Source: Bernardetiaceae bacterium
GTDB taxonomy: Bacteria; Bacteroidota; Bacteroidia; Cytophagales; Bernardetiaceae
Reading direction: 5' to 3'
Length of the DNA: 64,000 nucleotides
NCBI GenBank assembly: GCA_020832465.1
Contig: JAFIER010000046.1
Location: forward strand, 1 to 64,000
The first letter of the stretch is position 1. Each line of letters begins with the position of its first letter. Of this stretch, positions 12,033 to 61,058 are shown piece after piece. The position numbers and the translations under genes are program-made. The notes under the pieces are model-generated. The model had not been told where the DNA came from. It saw only the letters and a list, made by a program, of their open reading frames with translations, and did no database searches.

Positions 12033-12147
12033 CATACTATTTACACAGCCATAAATAATATTTCTCAAAGAAATATTATTGCTAAGCTCATTTTTTCAAT
12101 AAGGTGTGCAAACCTTACAACGCTATGGAAAAATGTATAGTGGTATG
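12033..12147 (+). mobile_element. Family A MITE, copy A2
   Basis: Runs from CATACTAT to GTGGTATG with both internal hairpins. The flanks AAACGTAAT (12024-12032) and AAACCTGAT (12148-12156) match at 7 of 9 positions, consistent with an aged 9-bp target duplication. Confidence 0.7.
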
Positions 12148-12202
12148 AAACCTGATAATTGATATTCTAAAATTTGATTTTTCACTCAAGACTGATTAGC
12201 AC

Positions 12203-13069
12203 ATGCTTTCTGCAATTATATGGGACGCAGATCCTATAATTTTTAGCTTATTTGATGGTTTTATTGAGTTAAGGTGGTATGGGCTTGCCTTTGTTACGGC
12301 TTTCCTACTCGGTTATTTTGCTTTGATGCGCCCTTTTTATAAGAGAGAGGGGAAAAATGTAGAAGACCTCGATATTTTGCTCAACTATATGATTGCCGCT
12401 ACAATTATAGGCGCGCGCTTAGGCCATTGCCTTTTCTACCAGCCAGAGTACTACCTTTCTAATCCCGTCAAAATCCTGATGATTTGGGAGGGAGGATTGG
12501 CAAGTCATGGCGGTGCAATCGGTATTTTAGTGGCGCTTTATATCTATTCACGTCGCCACCCAGACCAACCCTATCTTTGGCTTTTAGACCGCATTGTGAT
12601 AACCGTAGCCTTAGGCGGAACTTTCATTCGCTTAGGCAATTTGATGAACTCCGAAATTGTAGGTAGTATTACCGATTTGCCCTGGGGGTTTGTATTTATG
12701 AATTGCTCGGATTGCGTCATGCCTGATGGTACGATACCGCCTCGACACCCCGCGCAGCTTTACGAATCTATTTCCTACTTTTTTATATTTCTAATTACAC
12801 TGGGCATTTACAAACGTACAAAATCCCAAACGCCACAAGGCCTAATTTTTGGAATATTTTTAATTTTACTTTTTGGCGCACGATTTGTCATCGAGTTTTT
12901 AAAGAAAGAACAAGTAGATTTTGAGCAAACTATGGCACTCAATATGGGACAGATTTTGAGTATTCCTTTTGTGCTTGCTGGGGCTTTTTTACTGTATAAA
13001 GCACTTGCAGAACCCAATATCCCCCCACTTTCTACGCCCGATACTAAAAATAAAGACCATAAAAAGTAG
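12203..13069 (+). CDS. lgt: Prolipoprotein diacylglyceryl transferase
   Basis: Lgt moves a diacylglyceryl group from phosphatidylglycerol to the lipobox cysteine, the first step of lipoprotein maturation. The 288-residue membrane protein shows the family signatures ARLGHCLFYQPEYY, GGLASHGGAIG (near residue 97), GGTFIRLGNLMNSEIVG and RHPAQLYES, in the usual order with about seven hydrophobic segments. The length is normal. ATG at 12203 is the first start and leads directly into the conserved N-terminus. It is a single gene; the spacer before it holds repeats A1 and A2. It works with LspA, encoded 5.3 kb upstream. Confidence 0.96.
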   Translation: MLSAIIWDADPIIFSLFDGFIELRWYGLAFVTAFLLGYFALMRPFYKREGKNVEDLDILLNYMIAATIIGARLGHCLFYQPEYYLSNPVKILMIWEGGLASHGGAIGILVALYIYSRRHPDQPYLWLLDRIVITVALGGTFIRLGNLMNSEIVGSITDLPWGFVFMNCSDCVMPDGTIPPRHPAQLYESISYFFIFLITLGIYKRTKSQTPQGLIFGIFLILLFGARFVIEFLKKEQVDFEQTMALNMGQILSIPFVLAGAFLLYKALAEPNIPPLSTPDTKNKDHKK

Positions 13070-13104
13070 TTTTTATACAAAATGGAGGAGATATTTCTCA
13101 CAGA

Positions 13105-13180
13105 GGGTGTACGCCAAGTGGGTAAAACGACTTAGGTAGTTGCAGAACAAACAGCTTTTCTAAATCTGTTTGTTCTGTCC
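13105..13180 (+). repeat. Family C related repeat with 12-bp hairpin
   Basis: GTGTACGCCAAGTGGGTAAA followed by CGACTTAGGTAGTT resembles the segments at 24487, 39373 (reverse) and 52499. It is followed by a perfect 12-bp stem (CAGAACAAACAG at 13143-13154, complement at 13166-13177) without a T tract. Confidence 0.55.
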
Positions 13181-13225
13181 GGGTTAAGTCTAATACACAC
13201 CGACTGACTTATTTAATAATTTGAG

Positions 13226-14299
13226 ATGCAAAACATACGATTTTTTATATTGATATTGAGTTATGGCTTTATTTTTTTGCTCTTCTTTTTGAGTGAAGTA
13301 AGAAGTCAAAACCTAGAAGGGCAAGTTTTTGATGCCGAGACTAAAGAACCGCTCACTGGGGCGAGCGTATATCTAGACGGTACGACGCTCGGTACAGTTA
13401 CTGATAGCGAGGGTAAATATAGCATTGAGGTAAGCCAGCGTATCAATACAAATTTGATTATTCGGTTTATAGGCTACAAATCAGAGGTTATTGCTAACCC
13501 ATTTGAAACTAAATTTTCAAAAGTATATTTACAGCCTTCAACAGCAGAATTAGAAGAAATTATTGTTTCTGACGGGCTTTTTACAAGAGAAGAGATGCTC
13601 GAAGCCTTTCGCGAGCAGTTTTTAGGCCGCACCTCTGCCGGGAAAACCGCTTCTATCCAAAACGAAGAGGATATCCAGCTATTTTATGATGGAAAAACAA
13701 ATAGCCTTAAAGCCACAGCAAGCAAGCCCCTCAAAGTGGAAAATCCATTTTTAGGGTATCGAATTATCTTTACATTATACCGTTTTGAAACACAATTCAA
13801 TCAATTAAGTCTTAAATACGAACACGCCAAAAATTGTATTTTTTATGGCACAAACCAGTATGAAGACATAGAAGGTAGCGCATCTTCTAAAATGAAAAGA
13901 CGCAGATATAGAACCTATATGGGCTCAAAACGACATTTTTTCAAGACCTTAGCTACAAATAGCTGGGGCAGAAGCTCGTTTCTTTTGTATCGTAATAATA
14001 AAAAAGTCGACACAAAGGAGTTTTTTAGCGTGCGTGATTCGGCAGGTATTGCACGTGTAAAAGTACTCAAAAATTTTGCAGATCTTATAGAAGTCGAAAA
14101 TGTAGCGGCAGCACCTTCTTTTTTCTCCACGATTATAGCTGTTTATCGTTTAGAGGAGCAGTCAAGAGTGGTTTTTAAAACTGATATCTTTTATGTTGAT
14201 GACTATGGCAATTATGATGCTGTAGATAAAATTCAGTTTGGCGGAGGCATGGGAGTGCGCCGTCTTGCAGATATGCTACCGCTTGACTACCGTCCTTAA
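13226..14299 (+). CDS. Secreted protein with carboxypeptidase-regulatory-like domain
   Basis: The 357-residue product has a signal peptide (to about residue 27, SEVRSQ) followed by a carboxypeptidase-D regulatory-like beta-sandwich (residues about 29-110, with GQVFDAETKEPLTGASVYL, GTVTDSEGKYSIE and LIIRFIGYKS). In Bacteroidetes this domain commonly sits at the N-terminus of TonB-dependent receptors and of DUF5686-type outer-membrane proteins. Here the rest (about 245 residues) is shorter than either and has no plug or barrel that I can name. It could be a stand-alone envelope protein related to the N-terminal part of the DUF5686 family. It stands alone between lgt and argC. Confidence 0.75.
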   Translation: MQNIRFFILILSYGFIFLLFFLSEVRSQNLEGQVFDAETKEPLTGASVYLDGTTLGTVTDSEGKYSIEVSQRINTNLIIRFIGYKSEVIANPFETKFSKVYLQPSTAELEEIIVSDGLFTREEMLEAFREQFLGRTSAGKTASIQNEEDIQLFYDGKTNSLKATASKPLKVENPFLGYRIIFTLYRFETQFNQLSLKYEHAKNCIFYGTNQYEDIEGSASSKMKRRRYRTYMGSKRHFFKTLATNSWGRSSFLLYRNNKKVDTKEFFSVRDSAGIARVKVLKNFADLIEVENVAAAPSFFSTIIAVYRLEEQSRVVFKTDIFYVDDYGNYDAVDKIQFGGGMGVRRLADMLPLDYRP

Positions 14300-14585
14300 A
14301 CAATCGTTTTGTATTTGATAATCAAGTACTAATAGCTTCTAAAACCTTCAATATGCAAATATAGCTTGCTTATTGTATTGCACCTTCCCGCTATATTTTT
14401 GGATTATTGCTCAAAAATTCGTATCTTTTGCACTATCACTTCAAAATTAACAGCTTTTTTTAAACTGTTAGTGTTGAAGTGGTAGTTATTAAAGATTATC
14501 GCCTTTGCCTACAATCGCTCAATTAAAACAGGTAGAAAACAAAGGTGATAATGCCTATTACACAAAAAATACAAACCACTAAATT

Positions 14586-15632
14586 ATGAGTAACTCATCA
14601 AAAATATCCGTAGCTATTGTCGGGGCTACAGGATTTACAGGTTCGGAATTAGCATCGCTTTTATATATGCACGAGGCTACCGAACTTAGATATATCAGTT
14701 CGGAGAGCCATGCTGGTAAAGCCTTTTCAGATATTCACCCTCAGTTTACGGGTATTATAGATATGCCACTTTGCAAAGCTGATGATATAGATATTGATGC
14801 TGTAGAGGTTGTTTTCTTGGCACTCCCTCACGGTATCTCGATGGAATATGTAAAAAAATGGTATGATAGCGATGTAAAAATGATAGATTTTTCGGGCGAT
14901 TATCGCTTGAGTAGTGCTGAGGTCTATGAAGATTGGTATCAAAAAAAGCATAGCTTTACGCAAGTTTTTGAAGAGGCTGTGTATGGACTGCCCGAGCTTT
15001 TCGAGGCGCAGATTAAGGCAGCGCGTATTGTAGCGAATCCAGGTTGCTATCCTACGGCGAGTATTTTGGGGCTTTATCCTTTGGTTCAGCATCAGCTTAT
15101 CGATACTAAACGCATTATTATAGATGCTAAATCCGGCACTACGGGGGCAGGCGTAAAGCCCAAAGCGGGCACAATGTTTACGCACGTAAATGATAATTTT
15201 TTTGCTTATGGACTTAAAAATCATCGACATACCGTAGAGATTCAAGAAATATTAAGTCATTTTCAGCAGGCGGCATTAGAGGTTCAATTTACGCCTCACC
15301 TGCTACCCATAGATAGAGGGATTTTGGCTACTATCTATGCCCCCGCCCAAACAGCTATCGATGATGCAACTTTGCGCAAAACATACGAAGAAGCATACGC
15401 CCATTCAGATTTTATACGCATTCGAAAAACACCTCCTACGCTTAAAGAAGTGCGTGCAAGTCATTATTGCGATATTTATCCTACTTTTGATGCGCGCACG
15501 GGTAATGTTATCGTGCTCTCGGCTATTGATAACCTTATGCGCGGCGCCTCAAGTCAAGCCTTGCACAACTTTAATTTGATGTTTGGGCTTGCGCCTGATG
15601 CCGGATTAAGAAGAGTGCCGCTCAAGCCTTAA
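14586..15632 (+). CDS. argC: N-acetyl-gamma-glutamyl-phosphate reductase
   Basis: ArgC reduces N-acetylglutamyl phosphate to the semialdehyde, the third step of arginine synthesis. The 348-residue protein begins with the NADP-binding VAIVGATGFTGSELASLL, carries the active-site cysteine in VANPGCYPTASILGLYPL (near residue 152), and has the KSGTTGAG and NHRHTVEI segments that position substrate and the catalytic histidine. The length is normal. ArgJ is encoded 470 bases downstream on the same strand, but the spacer holds a hairpin and a complete family A element, so the two are probably separate units. The 286-base spacer upstream has a short AACAGTTT-type hairpin near 14447-14480 and no clear ARG-box-like operator. 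Confidence 0.96.
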   Translation: MSNSSKISVAIVGATGFTGSELASLLYMHEATELRYISSESHAGKAFSDIHPQFTGIIDMPLCKADDIDIDAVEVVFLALPHGISMEYVKKWYDSDVKMIDFSGDYRLSSAEVYEDWYQKKHSFTQVFEEAVYGLPELFEAQIKAARIVANPGCYPTASILGLYPLVQHQLIDTKRIIIDAKSGTTGAGVKPKAGTMFTHVNDNFFAYGLKNHRHTVEIQEILSHFQQAALEVQFTPHLLPIDRGILATIYAPAQTAIDDATLRKTYEEAYAHSDFIRIRKTPPTLKEVRASHYCDIYPTFDARTGNVIVLSAIDNLMRGASSQALHNFNLMFGLAPDAGLRRVPLKP

Positions 15633-15723
15633 AGGAATGCTTATTCCCTATCTAAAAAGAGTTTTTGGGGGGCTATATGATAGTACGCTTAAAGCCCCTA
15701 TAATGGACTTAGCTATTCAAAAC

Positions 15724-15754
15724 CGTAGGTAAGCTAATAAAAAATTAGCCTACG
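15724..15754 (+). terminator. Bulged hairpin downstream of argC
   Basis: CGTAGG-TAA-GCTAAT pairs with ATTAGCCTACG across a run of A, with a three-base bulge. There is no T tract directly after, so it is only a possible terminator or RNA end. Confidence 0.35.
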
Positions 15755-15858
15755 ACAAACCCAAAATTTAGACAAAAAATTCTTATATTAGCATTTACAA
15801 AAAAATTATACACCCAAGAGATGTATATACTACTTGTCTTGGGGTTGTAATTAAGGGT

Positions 15859-15981
15859 CATACTACATAGACATTTTCTATCCAGAAATAATATTTCTTT
15901 GAGAAATGTTATTTCTAAGCCCATTTTTGCATAGCGTGGGGTTTGCAAACTACACGCTATGCAAAAATGTATAGTAGTATG
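15859..15981 (+). mobile_element. Family A MITE, copy A3, with perfect 9-bp duplication
   Basis: Runs from CATACTAC to GTAGTATG, 123 bp. Inside are hairpin 1 (AGAAATAATATTTC with its mate) and hairpin 2 (CATTTTTGCATAGCGTG with its mate, arms ending near 15970). The flanks are identical ATTAAGGGT at 15850-15858 and 15982-15990. This is the best-supported copy. The remaining spacer 15633-16099 is AT-rich without other features. Confidence 0.88.
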
Positions 15982-16099
15982 ATTAAGGGTACAAAAATAA
16001 CAGCCCTTTTTAGTTATTTAATAAGCTTATAAACAGACACCTGCTGAAATAATAAAAAAGCACTGGTGCTTGGTATTTTCAAAGCAAAGCAAAACAAAT

Positions 16100-17311
16100 A
16101 TGAATAAAAATTTAACCCACGTAAGAGGCATAAAATGCTGGGGTACGCACAGCGGTGTAAAATCTATGCGAAGAGATTTGGCATTTATTTATTCCGAAGT
16201 GCCCTGCGCTGCTGCTGCTACTTATACACGCAACAAAGTACAAGCCGAGCCACTCAAGCTCACTCAAAAGCACCTCGCTGACGGCAGGGCGCAATTTATT
16301 ATCTGCAATGCGGGTAATGCAAACGCCTGCACTGGCACTCAAGGTTATAAAGGGGCAGAGGCTATGGCAACCACAGCAGCAGAGCTACTCGGCATAGACA
16401 AAGAAATGGTTATTGTAGCCTCCACGGGCATCATAGGAGAGCCATTTCCAACAGATGATATTGTTAATGCAATTCAAGAGAATATTCACAAACTCAGCAA
16501 CCTCGAGAAAGCAAGTGCTTTTGCAGCGAATGCGATTTTGACAACGGATACCTTTGCTAAAGAAGGTTTTTTAGATTTTCAAATCAACGACATTACCGTC
16601 AATATGGCGGGTATTGCTAAAGGATCTGGGATGATTCACCCTAATATGGGCACTATGCTGGCTTTTATCGTTTGTGATATTGCTATCGAACCCCAAATTT
16701 TGGATAAGGCTGTCAAAGAAGCCGTAGATTATAGCTTCAATATGATTACTGTTGATGGCGATACCTCTACCAATGATATGGTTGCAGTGATGTGTAACGG
16801 ACTTGCAGAAAATCAAATGATTAACGATACGGCGCAGCCAGAGTATGAAGTATTTGTCGATAAACTCAAATTTATGATGTTGCATTTGGCAAAACTCATT
16901 GTATCTGACGGGGAGGGCTCGAGCAAGTTCGTAGAGTATAGGGTAAGCAAAGCGGCAAGTGAAGCCTCAGCTCGTAAAATTATCCGAAGTATTAGCGATT
17001 CAACTTTGGTCAAAACAGCACTTTTTGGGCGAGACCCCAACTGGGGACGCATTATCGCTGCCGCAGGAAATGCTGGTGTAGCTTTCAATTATAAAAAAGC
17101 AAATCTTTATATCGGTGATAACGAAAATATGATCAAAGTCCTCGAGCGCGGCGCCCCCCTCTCTTACGATCGCAATTATGCCAAAAAACTCCTGCGTGAG
17201 GCTCATATACGTATCAACCTCGAACTCAACACGGGTAAAAATGATATAATTGGCTACGGTAGTGATCTCACAACCGATTATATTTTGTTTAATGCCGTTT
17301 ATACAACTTAA
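16100..17311 (+). CDS. argJ: Bifunctional ornithine acetyltransferase / N-acetylglutamate synthase
   Basis: ArgJ recycles the acetyl group from N-acetylornithine to glutamate and often also makes N-acetylglutamate from acetyl-CoA. It is a self-cleaving enzyme: the cleavage and nucleophile threonine lies in IHPNMGTMLAFIVCD, preceded by the conserved KGSGM. Other family segments are CNAGNANACTG, STGIIGEPFP, VDGDTSTNDM and FGRDPNWGRIIAAAG. From ATG 16100 the protein has 403 residues, a normal length; an in-frame TTG at 16070 would add ten non-conserved residues. Presence of ArgJ together with ArgC indicates the acetylated arginine pathway. Whether it has both activities cannot be judged from sequence alone. 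Confidence 0.95.
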   Translation: MNKNLTHVRGIKCWGTHSGVKSMRRDLAFIYSEVPCAAAATYTRNKVQAEPLKLTQKHLADGRAQFIICNAGNANACTGTQGYKGAEAMATTAAELLGIDKEMVIVASTGIIGEPFPTDDIVNAIQENIHKLSNLEKASAFAANAILTTDTFAKEGFLDFQINDITVNMAGIAKGSGMIHPNMGTMLAFIVCDIAIEPQILDKAVKEAVDYSFNMITVDGDTSTNDMVAVMCNGLAENQMINDTAQPEYEVFVDKLKFMMLHLAKLIVSDGEGSSKFVEYRVSKAASEASARKIIRSISDSTLVKTALFGRDPNWGRIIAAAGNAGVAFNYKKANLYIGDNENMIKVLERGAPLSYDRNYAKKLLREAHIRINLELNTGKNDIIGYGSDLTTDYILFNAVYTT

Positions 17312-17376
17312 AAAACTAAAAAAAAGCTGTGCTCCCCAAGATGAGTACAGGTAGCGCACTATTGAAAATAAATCTT

Positions 17377-17479
17377 CATACTATTAGACATTCTCCATAT
17401 AGAAATAACACAGCTCAAAGATGTGTTATTTCTAAACCCATTTTTTCATAACGCTATGGAAAAATGGTGTAGTAGTATG
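17377..17479 (+). mobile_element. Family A MITE, copy A4
   Basis: CATACTATTAGACATTC at the left, GTAGTAGTATG at the right. Hairpin 1 has a changed loop region (ACACAGCTCAAAGATGTG) with compensating arms, and hairpin 2 lacks its GC-rich tip. No convincing 9-bp duplication is seen. It occupies much of the 17312-17634 spacer. Confidence 0.7.
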
Positions 17480-17586
17480 AAGGTTTTTTAAATTTTCTAA
17501 AAATTTTAGTGCTTTGATTTTCAGTTTTGTCTGTTTTTTGTTAAGTTTGAAGTATTGTTGGTAGAATTATTGAATAATCTTACTCC

Positions 17587-17594
17587 TACATTTG
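17587..17594 (+). promoter_or_regulatory. Candidate -7 box (TACATTTG) for the CHASE2 cluster
   Basis: TACATTTG matches TAnnTTTG, 40 bases before the first CHASE2 gene. TTG triplets occur 14 and 26 bases upstream, neither at the ideal distance. Confidence 0.45.
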
Positions 17595-17634
17595 AATACT
17601 TGTTTTTGTTTACCCCTTCAAATTTTAATTTGTT

Positions 17635-18909
17635 ATGCTCAGACGCATATTCAATTGGACGGCACTCTCGAGCATGATAGCTGTATTTACTGTTATATGG
17701 CTTATCAAAACCTTAGCTATCAATCTTGACTTTTTGAATATTATCGAAGAAGTTTTTCAAGATTTTAAAGTAACGGATTTATATTTTTCTCACATCAGAG
17801 ACAATGATGCTATAGAGAAAGATGACCGCATTGTTATAGTCAATATCGGTGAGGGTAGTAATGTAAGAGGTGATATTGCCATGCAAGTAGCACTGATTAA
17901 CGAGGGGCAGCCACGTGCTATCGGAATTGATGTACTCTTGGCAGCGCCAAAAGAAGAGATGACGGATAATATATTGGCAGAGAGCTTTGCACAAACAAAA
18001 AATCTAATCCTTGCCACAAAGCTACTTCTTGATTCTATTAAGCAGAGCAATGATAGCCTGATATGGCAAAGTGCATTGTGCCCAATCCCTGCTTTTGCTA
18101 AATCGGGTTACCTCGCTTACGTGAATTTGGTTACAGAAGACGATACCAAAGTTTTTGAAACTTCGCGCCTTATTGCAAGGCAAGAATATGTATTGGATTC
18201 GTTGATGCTGAGTTTCCCCGCTGCGCTGGCTGCTTCCTACGACTCGGCAGCAGTAAAGACTTTTTTAGATAGACAGTTGCACCGCGACCCCTTTCCTTTT
18301 AATCTTTTGCCGTTAGCAAGCCGTCAAAATCAGCTTGAGATGATTCGTTATACGCGCAATACAGATAAATATACAGTATTAGACCCAGAGTATTTTTATA
18401 GTGACGACTTTGACCCTTCTATTTTTAAAGATAAAATCGTGCTTTTAGGATTTATGGGGCATACCTATAAAGAACTCACGGGCGAAGACCGTTATTATAC
18501 ACCTATGAACGAACGTCCTATCGGACGAACCGAAGCAGATATGTACGGGGTTGTTATTCATGCAAATGTAATTTCTATGATTTTGGATAATGATTATATA
18601 GCCCCTTCTCCCAATGGTTTTTCTTGGATTATGGCAATTATCTTTGGTTATTTTAATGCAGCTCTGTTTTGTAACTGGTATTTTAGTCCAAGACTTGGCT
18701 CTTGGTACGATTTTATCAGCAAATCTTTTCAAGTCGTGGAAGTTTTGGTGTTGGCAGCTATAGGGCTTTGGGCTTTGGCTGTATATGGTGTAGTTCTTGA
18801 TTTTAGCATTGCTATGGTTGTAATTTTATTTTCAAGCGATGTACTTGAAATTTATTTAGCCTTGCTTTCGCGCTGGGTAAAATCGGCTTCGAAGCCATTT
18901 TATTCTTAA
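17635..18909 (+). CDS. CHASE2-domain membrane protein without output domain (first of pair)
   Basis: The 424-residue protein has one N-terminal TM helix (about residues 14-33), a CHASE2-type extracytoplasmic sensor region (about 34-315), and three C-terminal hydrophobic helices. CHASE2 hallmarks include DDRIVIVNIGEG, PRAIGIDVLLAAP and FKDKIVLLGFMG, followed by RYYTPMNERPIGRTEADMYG. CHASE2 proteins usually end in a kinase, cyclase or GGDEF domain; this one stops after the TM bundle (ends KSASKPFYS). It must therefore signal through a partner or have another role. The next gene is a paralogue of the same layout, 93 bases downstream, followed by a secreted FecR-like protein. Confidence 0.85.
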   Translation: MLRRIFNWTALSSMIAVFTVIWLIKTLAINLDFLNIIEEVFQDFKVTDLYFSHIRDNDAIEKDDRIVIVNIGEGSNVRGDIAMQVALINEGQPRAIGIDVLLAAPKEEMTDNILAESFAQTKNLILATKLLLDSIKQSNDSLIWQSALCPIPAFAKSGYLAYVNLVTEDDTKVFETSRLIARQEYVLDSLMLSFPAALAASYDSAAVKTFLDRQLHRDPFPFNLLPLASRQNQLEMIRYTRNTDKYTVLDPEYFYSDDFDPSIFKDKIVLLGFMGHTYKELTGEDRYYTPMNERPIGRTEADMYGVVIHANVISMILDNDYIAPSPNGFSWIMAIIFGYFNAALFCNWYFSPRLGSWYDFISKSFQVVEVLVLAAIGLWALAVYGVVLDFSIAMVVILFSSDVLEIYLALLSRWVKSASKPFYS

Positions 18910-19002
18910 AAATGCAAAGTAAGGAAGTGAAATTATCCACACTTACATAAGTAAAAAGTGTTTATTATTGGAATAATCTATCAAATGTAAGATATAACGA
19001 TT

Positions 19003-20217
19003 ATGTGGCGAAAAATTTTTAATTGGACAGTACTCTCCGGCACGCTATTCTTAATAGCGATTATATGGCTTTTGCAGATTATCACAACAAATTTGAGCTT
19101 TTTGGACGTGGTAGAGGAGGTATTATTAGATTTTCAGATTTCTGATATTTACTACTCTAAAATTAGAGATAATGCAGCCCTTGCACCCGATGATAGAATT
19201 GTAATTATCAATGTTGGTGAGAATTTCCCAGCCCACATGGCTGCACTTGCCACTTTAGAGTTGCTCAATGAAGCCTCGCCCAAAGTTATTGGTTTGAACT
19301 TAGATATTGCCAAGCCCGCGCCAGATGAGATGATAGATTCGCTACTGCGTCTTAATATTCAAAAAGCCTCTAATTTAGTGTTGAGCACTGATATTGAAAC
19401 TATTAAAAATACGAATCCAACGCAGAAAGCCACAGCACTACACTATTATAAAGACGACGCTTTTATAGGATTTAAGGATTTAGGAAGCAATGTCAAACGC
19501 AACGGATTCGAGACTTCTCGATTTTTCTCCCCTTTTATACCCATAGAAGATACGCTTATCCATAGCTTTGCTTTACAAATCACTGCTTTGTACGACAGAG
19601 AAGCAGCGCAGAATCTAAAAAAACGACATGATACCCAACAACAATCAGCTGAATTGATTAATTATCGTGGAAATTGGGACAAATTTACAGTAGTAGATTT
19701 AGATGATATGTTTCAGGATTTTGACCCAGATTTAGTGCGCAACAAAATTGTGCTTATCGGTACTATGGGGGAAAGTTTTATAGACCAAACAGGAAGCGAT
19801 AGATATTATACACCTCTTAACGATAGCCCTATAGGCAGGAATAATCCTGATATGTACGGCATAGTAGTACAAGCTAATATTATATCTATGATATTGGGTA
19901 GCAATTACTTGATAAAGGTTCCAAGCTATTTTAGCATCATTATAGCTATTTTCTTTGCTTATTTTAATGCGGCTATCTTTGCTAATTGGTATTTCAGTAG
20001 TGGGTACGGCACTTGGTATGATGTCATCACCAAAGTTTTTCAACTCATTGAGATTATCATCTTAGTATTTTTGTTATTACAAGCCTTAGAAAACTTTAAT
20101 TTGCAAATAGACTTGACTTTTGCAATTGTAGTTATTGCACTATCTGGAGATTTGTTAGAGATGTACTTTTCCTTACTCTCCAATACCGTAGAAAAATCTT
20201 CAAAATATTTTCAATAA
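19003..20217 (+). CDS. CHASE2-domain membrane protein without output domain (second of pair)
   Basis: This 404-residue paralogue of the preceding gene shares RKIFNWTVLSG at the start, PDDRIVIINVGEN, VRNKIVLIGTMGES and DRYYTPLNDSPIGRNNPDMYG, and has the same layout of one N-terminal and three C-terminal TM segments. The two sensor regions differ strongly between the shared motifs, so the duplication is old and ligands may differ. It also ends without an output domain. Two similar but diverged subunits encoded side by side suggest a heteromer; this is inference. A 204-base spacer separates it from the secreted FecR-like/TPR protein, and no terminator hairpin was seen there. Confidence 0.85.
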   Translation: MWRKIFNWTVLSGTLFLIAIIWLLQIITTNLSFLDVVEEVLLDFQISDIYYSKIRDNAALAPDDRIVIINVGENFPAHMAALATLELLNEASPKVIGLNLDIAKPAPDEMIDSLLRLNIQKASNLVLSTDIETIKNTNPTQKATALHYYKDDAFIGFKDLGSNVKRNGFETSRFFSPFIPIEDTLIHSFALQITALYDREAAQNLKKRHDTQQQSAELINYRGNWDKFTVVDLDDMFQDFDPDLVRNKIVLIGTMGESFIDQTGSDRYYTPLNDSPIGRNNPDMYGIVVQANIISMILGSNYLIKVPSYFSIIIAIFFAYFNAAIFANWYFSSGYGTWYDVITKVFQLIEIIILVFLLLQALENFNLQIDLTFAIVVIALSGDLLEMYFSLLSNTVEKSSKYFQ

Positions 20218-24483: not shown

Positions 24484-24603
24484 CAGGGGTACGTCAAGTT
24501 AGTCAATCGATTTAGATAATTTCAGCCTTCACAGTTTTTAAAGCTGTAGCCCGAAGCTCCAGCTTCGAAAGTGGCTTATAACGAAGCTGGAGCTTCGTAC
24601 TAC
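24484..24603 (+). repeat. Family C repeat, copy C1
   Basis: GGGTACGTCAAGTTAGTCAA, a segment ending CAGCCTTCACAGTTTTTAAA, then CCCGAAGCTCCAGCTTCG and a second GAAGCTGGAGCTTCG. The first two segments match 39286-39373 read on the other strand. The spacer 24449-24896 is fully accounted for by C1, A5 and B2. Confidence 0.65.
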
Positions 24604-24613
24604 AGGCCTTAAA

Positions 24614-24731
24614 GATATTAGATGTCAAATTTTCAGAAATAACATTTCTGTCAGAAATGTTATTTCTAAGCCCATTTTTCCATAGCGTGGGGTTTGCAAA
24701 CCCCACGCTATGGAAAAATGTACAGTAGTGG
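24614..24731 (+). repeat. Family A element, copy A5, with a 48-bp perfect palindrome
   Basis: Diverged left end (GATATTAGATGTCA), hairpin 1 (AGAAATAACATTTCTG with mate), then a perfect palindrome at 24673-24720 centred on GGGGTTTGCAAACCCC with outer arms CATTTTTCCATAGCG. The right end is degenerate (GTACAGTAGTGG). No clear duplication is seen. Confidence 0.7.
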
Positions 24732-24750
24732 CTTTTCATATAAACTATAT

Positions 24751-24841
24751 GGTAGTGTATAACAAGTAATGCTTAGAACTAACAGTTCTTTGAGAACTGT
24801 TAGTTTTGAAAGACTTTGAGCATTACATCTTTAAGACTACC
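24751..24841 (+). mobile_element. Family B MITE, copy B2 (91 bp, 8-bp direct repeats)
   Basis: Identical over 91 bases to 6978-7068. It is flanked by AACTATAT at 24743-24750 and 24842-24849. Sequence identity of the two copies implies recent movement. Confidence 0.87.
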
Positions 24842-37766: not shown

Positions 37767-37868
37767 CATACTACTAAACAGGCTCCATCAAGAAATAATA
37801 TTTCTCAAAGAAATGTCATTTCTGAGCCCATTTTTCCATAACGCTATGGAAAAATGTATAGTAGTATG
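37767..37868 (+). mobile_element. Family A MITE, copy A8
   Basis: CATACTAC at 37767 to GTAGTATG ending 37868, 102 bp. Hairpin 1 is intact; hairpin 2 is shortened to CATTTTTCCATA and CTATGGAAAAATG around ACG. The flanks ATAGAAAAC (37758-37766) and ATAGAAAGC (37869-37877) match 8 of 9. The rest of the 37709-38082 spacer is AT-rich and shows nothing else. Confidence 0.85.
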
Positions 37869-50023: not shown

Positions 50024-50165
50024 TCACACTACTATACATTTTTTCATAGCGTTATGGAAAATGGGCTTAGAAATAACATTTCTCAAAGAAATGTTATTTC
50101 TATATGGATTTTCCACAGCTTAGGCTTTGCAAACCTCAGGGTATGGAAAAAATGTATAATAGTGT
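50024..50165 (-). mobile_element. Family A element, copy A10, inverted
   Basis: CACACTACTATACATTTTTT at the left and its inverted relative ending AATAGTGTG at the right. Hairpin 1 lies at about 50067-50101. Terminal repeats are well preserved but no 9-bp duplication is recognisable. Remaining bases of 50009-50330 show no other feature. Confidence 0.68.
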
Positions 50166-50330
50166 GTTTTTAAGCTATTTTGAGAAAAAGTAAAAGTGCC
50201 AAATCGTTTTCATACGGTTTGGCATAATTTTTTACATATTAGCAAGTATATGAGTATGACCTTACGCAAAGATAACAGAGAGTTCCCTATTCTTATTTGA
50301 TTTTCGTATTTCAATAAATCTATCCCGCGT

Positions 50331-51790: not shown

Positions 51791-51840
51791 AAAAAAGTAG
51801 CAATAGCATTTCTTTGAAAAATGTTATTGCTACTTTTTTT
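51791..51840 (+). terminator. Terminator of the PorP-OmpA gene
   Basis: AAAAAGTAGCAATAGCATTT pairs with AAATGTTATTGCTACTTTTT with one mismatch, closing in a T tract. The inner part resembles family A hairpin 1. Confidence 0.85.
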
Positions 51841-53848: not shown

Positions 53849-53875
53849 AAAGCAAAAAATCAGAATTTTTGCTTT
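53849..53875 (+). terminator. Weak AT-rich hairpin after the glycosyltransferase gene
   Basis: AAAGCAAAAA pairs with TTTTTGCTTT over a short loop. Low GC and no T tract after it, so weak. Confidence 0.3.
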
Positions 53876-53966
53876 AAATATAAGCAGTATGACTTTTTTT
53901 TTGTAATTTGCTTTCAATAATACCCTTTTGAACTTATCACACAAAAACAAAACAAACGAATACATA

Positions 53967-55481
53967 ATGAAAATAAAAAAATTATTAGTAGCCAATAGGG
54001 GTGAAATTGCAATAAGAGTGATGCGCTCAGCGCGCGAAATGGGCATTTCAACCGTAGCTATTTATAGCGAAGTAGATCGCACCGCACCGCATGTGCGTGC
54101 AGCCGATGAGTCTGTTTGCGTGGGTAAAGCAGCCTCTTCAGAATCTTATTTACGTATGGATACAATTATTACCGAGGCAGTGCGCTTAGGTGTAGATGCG
54201 ATTCACCCTGGTTATGGTTTTCTCTCCGAAAATGCTGAGTTTGCGCGTAAAGTCAAGCAAGCGGGTATGATATTCGTAGGCCCTTCGCCAGAGGCTATAG
54301 AAGTGATGGGGAGTAAGCTCGCTGCTAAAAATGCTGTTTTGGCTTATGATATTCCGCTTGTGCCTGGCACTGATGAAGCCGTATCCGATATTGCTGTAGC
54401 TAAAAAAGAGGCGCAGCGTATCGGCTATCCTATTTTGATTAAAGCCAGTGCGGGCGGCGGTGGCAAAGGTATGCGTATTATCGAACGAGAAGAAGATTTT
54501 GAATCGCAAATGGAAAGGGCGGTAAGCGAAGCGGTATCTGCCTTTGGAGATGGTTCAGTTTTTATCGAAAAATACATTACCTCGCCACGCCACATCGAAA
54601 TACAAGTCTTGGGCGATACGCACGGTAATATTGTGCACCTCTTCGAACGTGAATGTTCCGTACAGAGAAGGCATCAGAAGGTTATAGAGGAAGCACCCTC
54701 AGCAGTGGTGAGCCAGCAAATGCGCGAAGCTATGGGAAAAGCTGCTATAGATGTCGCTCGTGCTTGTGATTATTTTGGTGCAGGTACGGTAGAGTTTATC
54801 GTAGATGAAAAACTCGATTTTTACTTCCTCGAGATGAACACAAGATTGCAGGTAGAGCACCCCGTTACCGAAGAAATAACAGGTATAGACCTTGTCAAAG
54901 AGCAAATCAAAATTGCCGAAGGCAAAGCTATTTCTTTTTCACAAGAAGACCTAAGCATTAAAGGGCACGCCATTGAAGTACGTGTATATGCCGAAGACCC
55001 CGCAAGCAACTTCTTACCCAATGTCGGTACAGTACATACCTATCAGCCACCTAAAGGTGTAGGTATAAGGGTTGATGACGGCTTTGAATCGAATATGGAA
55101 GTACCTATTTACTACGACCCCATGATTGCAAAGCTCGTCGTAAAAGCAGCCACGCGTGAAGATGCTATCGAGCGTATGATTCGAGCAATTAACGAATATA
55201 AAATTACAGGAATAGAGACTACACTAAGCTTTTGTAAATTTGTGCTCGAGCACGAGGCTTTCCGAAGTGGTAATTTTAATACGAAGTTCGTGGAGAAATA
55301 CTTTAAACCCGAGCTACTCAAAACAAAGCCCACACCAGAGGAAGCCCAACTTATCGCTGCATTTGTGGCAGAATGGCTCAATCAAAAACAACAAAATCAA
55401 GAAGGAACAAGTCCTTTTAAAAATGAAAAAACGCAAGCTAAAAGCAAATGGAAGCAAAATCGCCTCCAAAGCAACGCATAA
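53967..55481 (+). CDS. accC: Biotin carboxylase subunit
   Basis: The 504-residue enzyme carboxylates biotin using ATP and bicarbonate. It shows the family opening KLLVANRGEIAIRVMRSARE, HPGYGFLSENAEFA, the ATP-binding KASAGGGGKGMRI, the HIEIQVLGDTHGN and ERECSVQRRHQKVIEEAPS segments, and the EMNTRLQVEHPVTEE active-site motif. The body fits AccC, but about 50 charged extra residues at the C-terminus (rich in K, Q, E, N) exceed the roughly 450-residue enterobacterial subunit. The accB carrier is not adjacent, so it could serve acetyl-CoA or propionyl-CoA carboxylase. ATG at 53967 begins four residues before the first motif. Confidence 0.93.
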   Translation: MKIKKLLVANRGEIAIRVMRSAREMGISTVAIYSEVDRTAPHVRAADESVCVGKAASSESYLRMDTIITEAVRLGVDAIHPGYGFLSENAEFARKVKQAGMIFVGPSPEAIEVMGSKLAAKNAVLAYDIPLVPGTDEAVSDIAVAKKEAQRIGYPILIKASAGGGGKGMRIIEREEDFESQMERAVSEAVSAFGDGSVFIEKYITSPRHIEIQVLGDTHGNIVHLFERECSVQRRHQKVIEEAPSAVVSQQMREAMGKAAIDVARACDYFGAGTVEFIVDEKLDFYFLEMNTRLQVEHPVTEEITGIDLVKEQIKIAEGKAISFSQEDLSIKGHAIEVRVYAEDPASNFLPNVGTVHTYQPPKGVGIRVDDGFESNMEVPIYYDPMIAKLVVKAATREDAIERMIRAINEYKITGIETTLSFCKFVLEHEAFRSGNFNTKFVEKYFKPELLKTKPTPEEAQLIAAFVAEWLNQKQQNQEGTSPFKNEKTQAKSKWKQNRLQSNA

Positions 55482-55517
55482 TCTTTGAAAGTCTTTTAGC
55501 GCAAAACTGTTATTATT

Positions 55518-56759
55518 ATGAATAAACATGACTTTTTACAACTCGTAAGCCACCCAGAACAGGCTAATAGTCTGAATGCAAGTGATTTGTACGATATTCA
55601 AGAGCAATATCCTTATTTTCAGGCGGCATCGCTGTTGCTGGCAAAAGCTACTAAAAGCCAAGCTAATATACAGCAAGCAGCACTGCAAACTATAGATAGG
55701 GCTGTATTGAGAGCACACCTAGACCCGAGCTTTAAGTTGAAGCCTAAAAGTCCGACCCCTATTTTTGCCGCTAAGGAGAGCCAGCAGAGCCTCAACTCCC
55801 CAGCACAAGCTGCGGAGGCTTTCGAAAGCATGGAACTACAAACAGAGAATATCAATGCTTTTGATAAATTCAAAACCGAAGAGACGCAAACCGAGCAGTA
55901 CGAAATTACGGAGGTGCAGGAAGAGCAAGACGAACCTGAAAATATTGAGCATCAAGAAGTAAGACAAAGCCTGGAAGATGCCGTAGCTGAAAGCCAAACC
56001 TATGCACAAGCCGTAATAGATAACGCCCTGGAGGGCGAGCAGGTAGCTACGCCCGAAGCTCAAAGCCAGCAGATAGCCACCACCGAGCAGGAAGTAGCAC
56101 CTGCTATACCAGAAGAGTCTGCCTTAGAGAAAGCCCGTCGTTATTTAGCTGACGACGATAATAGCCATACTGCCAACCATATCCCAACGCCAGAAAAACA
56201 AGAAGCCGAGCAGCCGCAAAGCGAAGCACAACCTCATGGACAGCCCCAAGAAGAGGAGAGCAAAGCAGCACAAGGATCAAGTTTTTTTGATGAAATAGCT
56301 ACAGATAGCTCACCCAAAGAATCCGCTACAACAGCTATATCTAATCAGGAAGAACCGCATACAAGTGGAAACAAAGGCAGTTTTTTTGATGAAATACCTG
56401 AAAGCAATAACGACGATTATAAGATTGATAATGACGCTCGTAATACGCCCCAAGAGCAAATTGCACCCAAAAAAGTGCATCAATTGTACGACGAAGAGCC
56501 ACCGCTTAAATCCGCTACACCTACAACCAAGCATAGCGAAAGTTTTTTTGATGAAATTGCGCCCGAGCCTTATGCCAATGAGCCAGAGTTCGAAGAGCCA
56601 AGTTTTATCTCCGAAGCAGATAGCGAGCCAGTAGCCGATGCCTTTAAAAAAACAGAAAGTTTTTTTGATAGCATAGACCAAGATATGCAAGAAGAGCCAC
56701 AGGCTTCGTCAGAAAATACAAATAAAAAGCCTCCTCAAAACTTTTTTGATGAGTTTTAG
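55518..56759 (+). CDS. Disordered acidic protein with repeated SFFDEI motifs
   Basis: The 413-residue protein is not recognised beyond its first 50 residues, where a helical segment (DFLQLVSHPEQ, then QEQYPYFQAASLLLAKA) is shared with many Bacteroidetes proteins next to envelope and secretion genes. The rest is low-complexity, rich in E, Q, A, S and P, and predicted disordered. Within it a six-residue motif recurs: SFFDEI at residues 255-260, 288-293 and 342-347, SFFDSI at 381-386, and NFFDEF at the extreme C-terminus (408-413). Regular aromatic-acidic motifs in a disordered tail suggest repeated docking sites for one partner. It is followed 103 bases later by secG on the same strand. Confidence 0.72.
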   Translation: MNKHDFLQLVSHPEQANSLNASDLYDIQEQYPYFQAASLLLAKATKSQANIQQAALQTIDRAVLRAHLDPSFKLKPKSPTPIFAAKESQQSLNSPAQAAEAFESMELQTENINAFDKFKTEETQTEQYEITEVQEEQDEPENIEHQEVRQSLEDAVAESQTYAQAVIDNALEGEQVATPEAQSQQIATTEQEVAPAIPEESALEKARRYLADDDNSHTANHIPTPEKQEAEQPQSEAQPHGQPQEEESKAAQGSSFFDEIATDSSPKESATTAISNQEEPHTSGNKGSFFDEIPESNNDDYKIDNDARNTPQEQIAPKKVHQLYDEEPPLKSATPTTKHSESFFDEIAPEPYANEPEFEEPSFISEADSEPVADAFKKTESFFDSIDQDMQEEPQASSENTNKKPPQNFFDEF

Positions 56760-56862
56760 TGTTTAAATTTGAAAAGTAAGCAAAAAAAGCCGTACTTTGC
56801 CGTACTTTAAAAACAAGTTTTAAAACGAAATCTTAGTATAGCTACATTTTAATAATAAAATC

Positions 56863-57246
56863 ATGGTCGTAACGCTAATTATTCTTACTGTTATCATCTC
56901 TATTTTGATGATTTTTATCGTACTTATGCAAAACCCCAAAGGAAGCGGTATCTCCTCCCAGTTTGGAGGCGCAGGTGCTACGCAAATGCTTGGTGCAAAA
57001 AGTAGTACAAATATCTTTGAAAAAATTACTTGGGGAATGGCTACTGCCGTTTTTGTGCTTTGTATTGTGGCTAACTTATTATTGGAAAACCCCGCTAATC
57101 AAAGCTCGGGTTATATTAGCCCCAACGAAAAAGCCGCACGTGATGCAGTGCCTGTAAACCTCGAAGAGCTCACCCCCGCAGAAAAAGAAGAGCTCGAGCA
57201 GGATAGCAAACCCGCAGAAAATCAACTGCCGTCAGAAGATGAATAA
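56863..57246 (+). CDS. secG: Protein translocase subunit SecG
   Basis: SecG is the small accessory subunit of the SecYEG channel. The 127-residue protein has two TM helices (about residues 2-20 and 53-73), joined by the conserved loop QNPKGSGISSQFGGAGATQ. The C-terminal tail is acidic and longer than the enterobacterial one, as often found in Bacteroidetes. It follows the SFFDEI-repeat gene by 103 bases and ends in a strong terminator. SecDF, encoded at 2-5 kb, acts with the same channel. Confidence 0.94.
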   Translation: MVVTLIILTVIISILMIFIVLMQNPKGSGISSQFGGAGATQMLGAKSSTNIFEKITWGMATAVFVLCIVANLLLENPANQSSGYISPNEKAARDAVPVNLEELTPAEKEELEQDSKPAENQLPSEDE

Positions 57247-57300
57247 TCAAAATCCTGATATAAGAAGCCTAAAACGCTAAGGCTAATTCAAAAAAATAAA

Positions 57301-57357
57301 AAAGCCCTTTATCTATCGAAAGCCACCATTGCATACGATAAATAAAGGGCTTTTTTT
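57301..57357 (+). terminator. Terminator after secG
   Basis: AAAGCCCTTTAT (57301-57312) pairs with ATAAAGGGCTTT (57342-57353), followed by seven T. It is preceded by an A run, so it could work in both directions. The rest of the 57247-57580 spacer is very AT-rich, with a weak -7-like TACCTTTA about 115 bases before the RNA-binding protein gene. Confidence 0.88.
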
Positions 57358-57580
57358 CGCTCATAACACTAAAATACAAGCACAAAAACGCATTTTCAAA
57401 AAAAAATAAAGAAAAATAAAAAAAAAATGGTGAAATATTAGGAATTATAAAAAAAAAGCCGTACCTTTACTTTAGTTATTACGGAAAAGCCGTGATACTT
57501 TATATTTTCTTATTGCCGAAATAATTACCCTTAGAAGTAATTGTTTAGGTGTTCCTTTTCTCTTATAATTTCTTTTTCTA

Positions 57581-57886
57581 ATGAACATTTACGTAGGTAA
57601 CATCAATTTCAAGTCGTCTGAAGACCAAATCAGAGAAGTATTTGAAGAATTTGGCGAAGTAACGTCAGTAAAAATTATTATGGATCGTGAAACAGGCAGA
57701 AGCCGTGGTTTCGGTTTTGTTGAAATGTCTGATGAAGACGATGCAAAAGACGCTATTGACGAGCTTAACGGCGCAGAAGTTGATGGTAAAGCTCTTGTGG
57801 TAAATCCTGCACGTCCACGCAAGCCTATGGGCGGCGGCGGAGGTGGCGGTGGATACCGCAGACCTTATCGCAACGATAGTTATTGA
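57581..57886 (+). CDS. Small RRM-type RNA-binding protein with glycine-rich tail
   Basis: The 101-residue protein is one RNA-recognition motif: RNP2 is IYVGNI (residues 3-8) and RNP1 is RGFGFVEM (near residues 43-50), the standard order and spacing. The tail is glycine-rich and basic (GGGGGGGG then YRRPYRNDSY). Such proteins are widespread in Bacteroidetes and cyanobacteria, where some respond to cold; they probably act as RNA chaperones or post-transcriptional regulators. The spacer before it is unusually AT-rich, with a TAATTACCC/AGTAATT-type hairpin in the likely leader. It ends in a strong terminator and is therefore monocistronic. Confidence 0.95.
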   Translation: MNIYVGNINFKSSEDQIREVFEEFGEVTSVKIIMDRETGRSRGFGFVEMSDEDDAKDAIDELNGAEVDGKALVVNPARPRKPMGGGGGGGGYRRPYRNDSY

Positions 57887-57924
57887 AACTTTGATAATAA
57901 TAGTCAATAATATATCTTTGAAAA

Positions 57925-57959
57925 AAAGCAAGCCTTTATGCAAAGGCTTGCTTTTTTTT
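57925..57959 (+). terminator. Terminator of the RNA-binding protein gene
   Basis: AAAGCAAGCCTTT pairs perfectly with AAAGGCTTGCTTT over a 4-base loop, followed by eight T. Confidence 0.92.
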
Positions 57960-58050
57960 GTGCCTTTTTAGCAAAGAATGCCTATATTGAGCCTTGAAAG
58001 TAAAAAAATCATAAGAAAATGGTTTGAGGTGCTAAAATAGCCCAGCAATA

Positions 58051-58115
58051 ATGGGCTTAGAAATAACATTTCTTTGAGAAATGTTATTTCTGGTTGGAAA
58101 ATGTATAGCAGCATG
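58051..58115 (+). repeat. Family A fragment (A12)
   Basis: ATGGGCTTAGAAATAACATT with full hairpin 1, then a right-end-like GGAAAATGTATAGCAGCATG. The hairpin 2 centre is absent. The rest of the 57887-58230 spacer holds only the terminator above. Confidence 0.6.
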
Positions 58116-58230
58116 TATTGCTACATATATAAACCGCCTACAATAAAGCTAAATCAAATGTAATAATCTTTAATGACTTAGGCTTGCTTGCTTAAAAAAG
58201 CCTCAAATATTTGTTTCAAACTTTGCATTT

Positions 58231-59280
58231 ATGTCTAAAAATACCATTATCGTTACAGGTGGATGCGGATACATCGGTTCGCACACCATTATAGCCCTAC
58301 TCGAACATACTGACTTTGAAGTCGTTTCAGTAGATAATTTTATCAACTCTTCAGTGCGCACACTTGAGCGTATAAAAGCCGTTACAGGCAAAACAATTAC
58401 CAACTACGATATAGACCTTTGTGAGCCTGCTGCTTTTGAGCGTCTTCTCGAGCAGTTGCCTAATGTCCTGGCTGTTATTCATTTCGCTGCACTCAAATCC
58501 GTGCCCGAGTCGGTAGAAAAGCCTCTTTTATACTATCAAAATAACCTCGAATCTTTAAGATTAGTCTTAGAAGCTACTGCTACGGCAGCAGTACCTTACT
58601 TGATATTCTCCTCATCTTGTTCTGTATATGGAAATGTAGCCGATTTGCCCGTAGATGAGACTACTGCATTGGCTTTTGCTGAATCTCCTTATGCTTATAC
58701 AAAGCAAATCAGCGAGCGTATGATTTCAGATTTTACAAGCGTTTCGCCTTATCCTAAAGCTGTTTCTTTGCGTTATTTCAATCCCGTAGGTGCACATATA
58801 TCAGGTAAAAATGGAGAAGACCCTATCAACCCGCCGACTTCATTAGTCCCCATTATTACACGCACTGCGATAGGTATGCAAAAAGAAATGAAAGTTTTTG
58901 GTGATGACTATCAAACAAGAGACGGCTCCTGCGTACGCGATTATATTCACGTTTCTGATATTGCAGATGCGCATATTAAAGCACTTTATTATCTTATTGA
59001 AAATGATAAAAAAGGCATAAAATCGCTGTTAAACGAGGTTTTTAATCTCGGTACAGGAAATGGAGTTACTGTGCTCGAGGCTATAGCGGCTTTTGAGCAA
59101 GTGAGTGGGCAGAGACTCAATTATCAAATTACAGGAAGACGAGACGGAGATGTCGAAGCTATTTATTCAGATTCTACAAAAGCCTACAAAAAACTCGGCT
59201 GGAAGCCCCAATATACAATTCACGAAATGATGCAATCGGCTTGGAAGTGGCAACAGCTACTGCATCATACTCACAAATAA
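58231..59280 (+). CDS. galE: UDP-glucose 4-epimerase
   Basis: GalE interconverts UDP-glucose and UDP-galactose for polysaccharide synthesis. The 349-residue protein is a short-chain dehydrogenase/reductase with the NAD motif VTGGCGYIGSH at residue 8, the FAALKSVPESVEKPLLYY segment, the catalytic serine in IFSSSCSVYGN and the YxxxK pair in YAYTKQ. FNPVGAH and GDGSCVRDYIHVSDIA-like (DGSCVRDYIHVSDIADAH) segments complete the family pattern. The length is normal. It is a single gene preceded by a family A fragment. Confidence 0.95.
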   Translation: MSKNTIIVTGGCGYIGSHTIIALLEHTDFEVVSVDNFINSSVRTLERIKAVTGKTITNYDIDLCEPAAFERLLEQLPNVLAVIHFAALKSVPESVEKPLLYYQNNLESLRLVLEATATAAVPYLIFSSSCSVYGNVADLPVDETTALAFAESPYAYTKQISERMISDFTSVSPYPKAVSLRYFNPVGAHISGKNGEDPINPPTSLVPIITRTAIGMQKEMKVFGDDYQTRDGSCVRDYIHVSDIADAHIKALYYLIENDKKGIKSLLNEVFNLGTGNGVTVLEAIAAFEQVSGQRLNYQITGRRDGDVEAIYSDSTKAYKKLGWKPQYTIHEMMQSAWKWQQLLHHTHK

Positions 59281-59452
59281 TACATACCTATGTACCTCAT
59301 TTTTTCAAAGTTTCAAACATAATTTACAAAAATCTTGTTTTTTATTGTGATTATTTCCTTGTTATGGTTTAGATTTGTAATCTATTCAAAATTTATAGCA
59401 ATTTCGTGAAGATTTAATTCCAAAGGCTTCACTTCATTTTATTATTTTCACA

Positions 59453-60706
59453 ATGGAACTTCAAAATGATGGGCATCGCTATACCGTAGCCGATGTAGAT
59501 TTAGTAGGTTTGGCAGAGCAGTATGGCTCGCCTTTGTATGTATATGATTTGGCATGTATTGAGAAGCAGTACAAACGGTTAAAAAAGGCTTTTTCTGGTG
59601 CTAACGTGCATTTTAAATATGCTTGCAAAGCACTTACTAATGTCAATATTTTGCGCTACCTCAAATCCTTAGGTTTGGGATTAGATGCCGTATCAATTTC
59701 TGAGGTAAAATTAGGGCTTAAGGCAGGCTTTACGCCAGATAAGATTATTTATACACCTAACTGTGTGTCTATCAATGAGTTTGAAGAAGCAGCTGCCTTA
59801 GGCGTTGCCATCAATATTGATAACCTCTCTATCTTGGAGCAGTTTGGTTCTTTATTTGGCAGCGCTCACCCAGTTTGCATACGCATCAATCCACATATTT
59901 ATGCAGGTGGTAACCACAAAATATCAACAGGGCATATCGATTCTAAATTTGGTATATCTATCTATCAGCTCCCTCACGTGGAGCGTGTGATACAAAATAC
60001 AGGACTAAGAATCAATGGCTTGCACATGCATACTGGCTCCGATATCATTGATCCCGATGTGTTTTTGCGTGGTGCGCAAGTCCTTTTTGATGCCGCTAAA
60101 AACTTTAAAGATTTAGAGTTTTTAGATTTAGGTAGTGGCTTTAAAGTACCATATAAGCCCAACGATCTTTTTACTGATGTTGAATTACTGGGCGAAAAAC
60201 TCTCAACATATTTCAATGCCTTTTCAAAAGAATATGGAAAAGAATTAGCCTATTACTTCGAACCTGGTAAATTTTTAGTGAGCGAAGCAGGATATTTTCT
60301 GGCCAGCACAAACGTCATCAAGCATACTACGGCAAATGTATTTGTAGGCATCAACTCAGGGTTTAATCATCTGATTCGTCCAATGTTTTATGACGCACAT
60401 CATGAAATAGTGAATATATCAAATCCACAAGGCACGGAGAGAATTTATACCGTAGTAGGTTATATCTGCGAAACAGATACATTTGGCCACGACCGCCGCT
60501 TGAATGAAGTCAGAGAAGGTGATATTTTATGCTTCCGAAATGCGGGCGCATACTGCTTTGAAATGTCTTCAAACTTTAATTCAAGGTTAAGGCCCGCAGA
60601 GGTAATGCTCTATAATGGCGAATCTTATCTCATTCGTGAGAGAGAAGTATTTGAAGACCTACTCGATAAGCAGCGCATCGTCGAGCTCGATACTGTAACA
60701 GTGTAA
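59453..60706 (+). CDS. lysA: Diaminopimelate decarboxylase
   Basis: LysA decarboxylates meso-diaminopimelate to lysine using PLP. The 417-residue protein has the alanine racemase-like barrel with the PLP lysine in VHFKYACKALTN, then GLGLDAVSISEVKLGLKAG, the HMHTGSDI segment and the phosphate-binding LGSGFKVPY. The C-terminal domain has FEPGKFLVSEAGYFLA, ICETDTFG (with the conserved cysteine) and GAYCFEMSSNFNSRLRPAE, which bind substrate across the dimer. The length is normal. A 172-base spacer after galE makes an operon possible; no terminator is seen between them. A hairpin terminator follows. Confidence 0.95.
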   Translation: MELQNDGHRYTVADVDLVGLAEQYGSPLYVYDLACIEKQYKRLKKAFSGANVHFKYACKALTNVNILRYLKSLGLGLDAVSISEVKLGLKAGFTPDKIIYTPNCVSINEFEEAAALGVAINIDNLSILEQFGSLFGSAHPVCIRINPHIYAGGNHKISTGHIDSKFGISIYQLPHVERVIQNTGLRINGLHMHTGSDIIDPDVFLRGAQVLFDAAKNFKDLEFLDLGSGFKVPYKPNDLFTDVELLGEKLSTYFNAFSKEYGKELAYYFEPGKFLVSEAGYFLASTNVIKHTTANVFVGINSGFNHLIRPMFYDAHHEIVNISNPQGTERIYTVVGYICETDTFGHDRRLNEVREGDILCFRNAGAYCFEMSSNFNSRLRPAEVMLYNGESYLIREREVFEDLLDKQRIVELDTVTV

Positions 60707-60826
60707 AAAAGACTATACTGCTATATATGCGCAGGTCGGCGAATAATACATTTATTTGATAAATGTTACGTCTTTAAAAACTATCAACTTTTTTCGCATA
60801 ATTCCTATGTAGCGATACTTACAAGC

Positions 60827-60867
60827 CAGCAATAACATTTTTTTATGAAATGTTATTGCTGTTTTTG
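60827..60867 (+). terminator. Terminator of lysA
   Basis: CAGCAATAACATTT pairs with AAATGTTATTGCTG over a short loop, followed by TTTTT. The stem is closely related to family A hairpin 1. Confidence 0.82.
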
Positions 60868-60969
60868 TATAAAAAGCAAAACATTAACAACTTTTCTAAA
60901 AAACTTACGTTTAATGACAAAACTGCCTATGGTAGCAGTACGGTTTTTGTGTTTTATTTTATATTGCTT

Positions 60970-61058
60970 CATACTACCAGACATTCGCTAGCCCGAAATA
61001 ATACATCTTTGAGATAGGTTATTTCTAAGCCCATCTGGAAAAATGGTACAGTAGTATG
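60970..61058 (+). mobile_element. Family A MITE, copy A13
   Basis: CATACTAC to GTAGTATG, 89 bp, with a diverged hairpin 1 and a collapsed hairpin 2. The flanks ATATTGCTT (60961-60969) and ATATTACTT (61059-61067) match 8 of 9. The rest of the 60707-61104 spacer holds the lysA terminator and a short hairpin near 60750. Confidence 0.82.

Follow-up and report, generated by a model that had tools for sequence, protein, structure and literature searches.

Prokaryotic MITEs are described as elements shorter than 500 bp that have short terminal inverted repeats and stem-loops, occupy AT-rich intergenic sites, are bordered by target duplications, and have an insertion sequence (IS) relative (PMC10969869). 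Among the insertion sequences themselves, the IS4Sa subgroup is defined by ends of the form CA------T, lengths of 1150–1750 bp, and direct repeats of 8–10 bp (De Palmenaer et al. 2008, PMC2266710, Table 1); for the IS4 family as a whole, our criterion was direct repeats of about 8–13 bp. The repeat family described here, family A of a Bernardetiaceae bacterium, shares with these MITEs a length below 500 bp, short terminal inverted repeats, a stem-loop interior, target duplications, an IS relative in the genome, and a location in AT-rich intergenic sites. It is unlike the prokaryotic MITEs reviewed in having a modular interior, one hairpin of which (H1) is common to families with other ends and other duplication lengths. 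The kind of element, a MITE with an IS4-type partner, is known; family A is new, and it was not reported in the literature on MITEs of the host lineage that we searched. We consider it highly probable (about 0.93) that family A is a non-autonomous MITE that depends for its movement on an IS4-family DDE transposase acting in trans, with the production of 9-bp duplications.

Family A copies and their flanking repeats

The window, by which we mean the entire 64,000-nucleotide stretch that was analyzed, is contig C134 of a 4.6-Mb assembly in 289 contigs. The protein most similar to its Lgt comes from a Bernardetia MAG (57% identity), and Bernardetia is among the genomes placed in the host family: a hit in genome G001 has almost the coordinates of one on the Bernardetia sp. 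ABR2-2B plasmid NZ_CP147021.1. A first-pass annotation had placed four family A copies with 9-bp direct repeats in it, and their coordinates, ends, and flanks (9/9, 8/9, 8/9, and 7/9) proved to be as described (Table 1). The three further copies that it listed as near-complete and free of a duplication fared unevenly. The copy at 17377 has good ends and, as claimed, no duplication, its flanks agreeing at 4/9; that at 50024 indeed has no duplication, but its ends are mutated; and that at 24614 is a mosaic half-element without a left end, in which the left part of another repeat runs at H1 into the family A right half, with H1 and H2. Fragments, also announced by the annotation, were found at about 11820–11861 and 58045–58107. 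Full-length elements contain two hairpins, H1 and H2. A scan of the window against Rfam matched a tRNA only, and hence no known RNA family for family A.

Table 1. Family A and family B features of the window, in window coordinates
Feature	Position	Strand	Details
Family B copy	6978–7068		91 bp; GGTAGTGTATAAC...GACTACC; exact 8-bp duplications; near-identical to the copy at 24751–24841
Family A fragment	about 11820–11867	+	Subterminal box and H1
Family A copy	12033–12147		115 bp; flanks AAACGTAAT / AAACCTGAT, 7/9
Left target-site duplication of the 15859–15981 copy	15850–15858		ATTAAGGGT
Family A full-length copy	15859–15981	+	123 bp; H1 then H2; ATTAAGGGT on both sides, 9/9
Hairpin H1 of the 15859–15981 copy	15884–15916		AGAAATAATATTTCT TTG AGAAATGTTATTTCT
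Hairpin H2 of the 15859–15981 copy	15929–15962		GCATAGCGTGGGGTTTGCAAACTACACGCTATGC
Right target-site duplication of the 15859–15981 copy	15982–15990		ATTAAGGGT
Family A copy	17377–17479	+	103 bp; ends intact; flanks 4/9, duplication gone
Mosaic, incomplete family A	24600–24733	+	Left part of another repeat, H1 (24635–24667), family A right half with H2 (24680–24713)
Family B copy	24751–24841		91 bp; GGTAGTGTATAAC...GACTACC; exact 8-bp duplications
Family A copy	37767–37868	+	102 bp; flanks ATAGAAAAC / ATAGAAAGC, 8/9
Decayed family A copy	50025–50166	-	Mutated ends CACACTAC / TAGTGTG; no duplication
Family A fragment	about 58045–58115	-	H1 and one outer end, ...GTATAGCAGCATG
Family A copy	60970–61058	+	89 bp; flanks ATATTGCTT / ATATTACTT, 8/9

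Both ends of family A carry the terminal inverted repeat CATACTACTANACATT, which at 16 bp lies within the roughly 4–30 bp used to define MITEs. Genome-wide, this end has 360 matches with at most one mismatch (179 + 181), against 2 (1 + 1) for the reversed control, and from these end counts we estimate about 180 element equivalents. Copy counts refer to the whole genome, and flank statistics to a sample of about 1.06 Mb together with individually fetched loci. Among 59 elements for which both ends and flanks were available, lengths span 81–156 bp, mostly 80–135 bp and most often 122 bp, bearing out the earlier claim that the family lacks coding capacity. The genome-wide excess of matching 9-bp flanks that had been proposed as a check was found: 22 of the 59 have exact 9-bp repeats, 35 match at 8/9 or better, and 44 at 7/9 or better, and none has an exact flanking repeat of length 5–8 or 10–13. 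Within the 1.06-Mb sample, 18 of 74 paired-end elements have exact 9-bp flanks, with no other exact flank length from 4 to 13 represented. When flanks were shuffled between elements, none reached 8/9 (expectation about 0). The remaining 15 of the 59 elements have flanks matching at 6/9 or less, which is consistent with age and is no proof of insertion for those copies. Symmetrized, the exact 9-mers have A at position 1 (73%), T at position 2 (57%), A at position 8 (57%), and T at position 9 (73%), a target preference for the weak palindrome AT-N5-AT.

Further evidence of movement comes from an empty paralogous site, of which we have one case: when the two flanks of the C258:18182 element are joined, they match a member of another repeat family at a different locus, and this contains a single ATCTGCAAT. 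Two family A copies are identical and others are 99% identical, all at different sites, so movement was recent.

These data bear on a quite different account, in which family A consists of fixed intergenic hairpins (terminators or other RNA or DNA structures) maintained by selection, with the 9-mers arising by chance. The elements are mostly intergenic, even though open reading frames make up 83% of the sample, and paired changes preserve the stems of both hairpins (22 cells versus 9.4 after shuffling, and far above slid structures), as such an account expects. Paired stem changes are, however, predicted alike by selection on the hairpins and by templated correction of imperfect palindromes. 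Against fixed hairpins stand the single exact flank length at unrelated sites, the empty paralogous site, and the absence of convergent-gene enrichment among family A contexts (7 convergent, 7 divergent, and 25 tandem). We regard this account as very improbable, and as the cause of the dispersal of family A it is refuted by the 9-bp flanks and the empty site; some copies may nonetheless have a secondary structural role.

A candidate partner insertion sequence and its relatives

The annotation had further suggested looking for an IS with a transposase gene between the same ends, and the genome that harbors family A contains one. This candidate partner, a 1224-bp IS at C277:26832–28055, is bounded by inverted CATACTACTAGACAAAA ends on both sides and shares the 14-bp end CATACTACTAGACA with the MITE. 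Beyond these terminal 14 bp we found no similarity between the two, and by this comparison the MITE interior is not derived from the C277 IS. The open reading frame is intact and encodes 384 amino acids with the DDE and YREK residues; D105, D169, and E278, together with Y271-x2-R274-x3-E278-x6-K285, are invariant in four proteins. Against profiles, the transposase scores above the cut-off of PF01609 and reaches 149.7 bits with NF033591 (NCBIfam IS4_2), whose cut-off is 152. Its named relatives by sequence, ISDra1 and ISAba1, are just 24–32% identical, and a sequence search of the PDB with it returned no match. The length of the C277 IS, its CA------T ends, the 9-bp repeats of the MITE, and its full YREK motif agree with IS4Sa, a likeness judged on these features and not on transposase clustering. 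Because the IS adjoins a contig end, its own duplication is unreadable, and a search for the second flank gave nothing. Three PF01609 transposases of this genome were considered as partners; the IS5-type (L092) and IS701-type (L094) candidates were rejected, as they have no CATACTAC ends.

Could family A have been moved by a different DDE transposase, no longer present or unassembled, whose ends resembled CATACTACTAGACATT more closely than the C277 IS ends do? One assembled IS copy faces about 180 MITEs, and the MITE ends read ...GACATT, like those of ISs from Persicobacter, where the C277 IS has ...GACAAA. A composite at C194:766–908 (L096, L193) argues the other way, as it pairs a C277-type IS end with a MITE end. 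It has the structure GGTTTGGAT | 31 bp of IS left end + MITE | GGTTTGGAT, and because this 9-bp repeat is perfect, the IS and MITE ends were used as a pair. The sequence most readily suggests that a MITE inserted into an IS end and that the outer ends of the IS and of the MITE would then have been used together; the composite is a new, hybrid-ended element. We rate a separate transposase as unlikely, though by no means negligible. Adjacent to the C277 IS, the 9 bp at C277:26823–26831 (ATTAGCTAT) agree at 8/9 with IS positions 23–31 next to the C194 MITE (TTTAGCTAT); the likeness may be due to chance, to target preference, or to an event common to both.

Returning to family A as a MITE moved by an IS4-family transposase, we propose that the transposase would recognize the shared 14–16-bp end CATACTACTAGACA(TT), excise the element, and insert it into a target site opened with a 9-bp stagger, so that a 9-bp direct repeat would result; targets would be weak AT-N5-AT palindromes, mainly intergenic. 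The enzyme would be the 384-amino-acid protein of the C277 IS or a close relative that has disappeared or is missing from the assembly, and the C277 IS itself is probably the mover. A cut-and-paste mechanism is likely by analogy, being known for IS4-family members, and the inner hairpins are probably passengers rather than required parts. Transposition by a 9-bp staggered cut, as the first-pass annotation had it, is supported by the genome-wide flanks, the partner IS, and the empty paralogous site.

Homologous ISs occur in other genera. Those of Persicobacter (43% amino acid identity, ends CATACAGCTAGACATT) and Spirosoma (40%, ends CAGACTACTGGACA) are 1203–1217 bp long and have 9/9 duplications at 4/4 sites, and that of Bernardetia (35%, ends TACAGTACTGGACATG) also has 9/9 duplications. 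Bernardetia genomes (G004 and G007) additionally contain two-hairpin MITEs, about 130 bp long, whose ends are TACAGTACTGGACATG-like; in several of these, 9/9 duplications were read by eye: GAGGTCTTT (L188), TGTTTCTTT (L189), and TAAATATAC (L190). They resemble family A in having ends cognate to a local IS4-type IS, 9-bp duplications, and two hairpins, whereas the hairpins themselves differ from H1 and H2 and resemble a GTTGGTGGGGACACCAAC module. Since the Bernardetia IS and MITEs share TACAGTACTGGACATG-like ends, the pairing of IS and MITE recurs in this sister genus, with the ends of both having changed together. The GTTGGTGGGGACACCAAC-type hairpin occurs in several Bernardetia MITEs (L188, L189, L191, and L192), and a similar sequence, GTGTTTGGTGGGGACACCAAACAC, is found near solo H1 copies in the genome that carries family A.

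Hairpin modules shared between element families

The interior of full-length family A elements consists of H1 (AGAAATAACATTTCT-nnn-AGAAATGTTATTTCT) and H2 (CCATAGCGTGGGGTTTGCAAACCCCACGCTATGG), and the two are distributed differently. In its own genome H2 hardly occurs outside family A and fragments of that family, and in Bernardetia it is present in elements with other ends. H1, at up to three mismatches, has 636 copies in its own genome and 2 in genome G003, and was absent from nine other members of the host family that we searched. It is common to at least three MITE families that differ in their ends and have duplications of 9, 8, and 8 bp. Sampled family B elements are 91 bp long (GGTAGTG...ACTACC) and contain an H1-type hairpin; of 31, 25 are bordered by exact 8-bp duplications. 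Family C, as sampled (for example, C220:93084–93236), has the form GGGTGTACG...CGTACACCC, spans 102–171 bp, has 8-bp duplications in 5 of 16 cases, and carries one or two H1-type hairpins.

H1 also exists as solo palindromes, at 51799–51831 of the window and at many sites of the sample; some are followed by T runs and look terminator-like. Of 152 solo H1 palindromes in the sample, 48 have unique outer arms that lengthen the stem by 4 bp or more, where about 4.5 would be expected. Among intergenic H1 copies with known neighbors, 67 of 268 lie between convergent genes, compared with 99 of 599 gaps, a mild enrichment that neither explains nor excludes a terminator role for solo H1.

Dispersed palindromes of this sort recall REP/BIME-type elements, which a RAYT (Y1 transposase) would spread via single-stranded DNA. 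Three Y1_Tnp proteins are encoded in this genome, one of them RAYT-like by length (235 amino acids), and family A has palindromes inside its elements, but it also has 9-bp duplications, and the loci examined around the Y1 genes contain no H1 palindrome. Transposition of the IS200/IS605 or RAYT type is not known to duplicate the target. For the CATACTAC element, spread by a RAYT is accordingly refuted by the target duplications, and we give it hardly any weight as an origin of family A; RAYT or Y1 proteins as spreaders of H1 are likewise unsupported, with no H1 in those loci.

Tentatively, and at somewhat less than even odds, we suggest that unrelated MITE families exchange H1 as a module, through nesting followed by re-mobilization (compare C194) or through recombination at H1 (compare the mosaic of the window), or that H1 spreads alone. 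A nested insertion of family B within family A was observed; judged by their sequences, this nesting, the C194 composite, and the mosaic at window position 24635 could all be ways in which modules are exchanged. If the suggestion is correct, H1 has, in one genome, reached at least three families mobilized by different transposases (with 9-bp and 8-bp duplications), and also exists as solo palindromes at a density of about 100 per Mb or higher.

Family A and the C277 IS provide, in a Bacteroidota lineage, a clearly documented MITE family and its likely parent IS, for which the exact length of the duplication, an empty site, and a transposition event with hybrid ends are on record. The H1 hairpin that it has in common with other families raises the question of how short palindromes, as modules, travel from one family of mobile elements to another and come to occupy intergenic regions.
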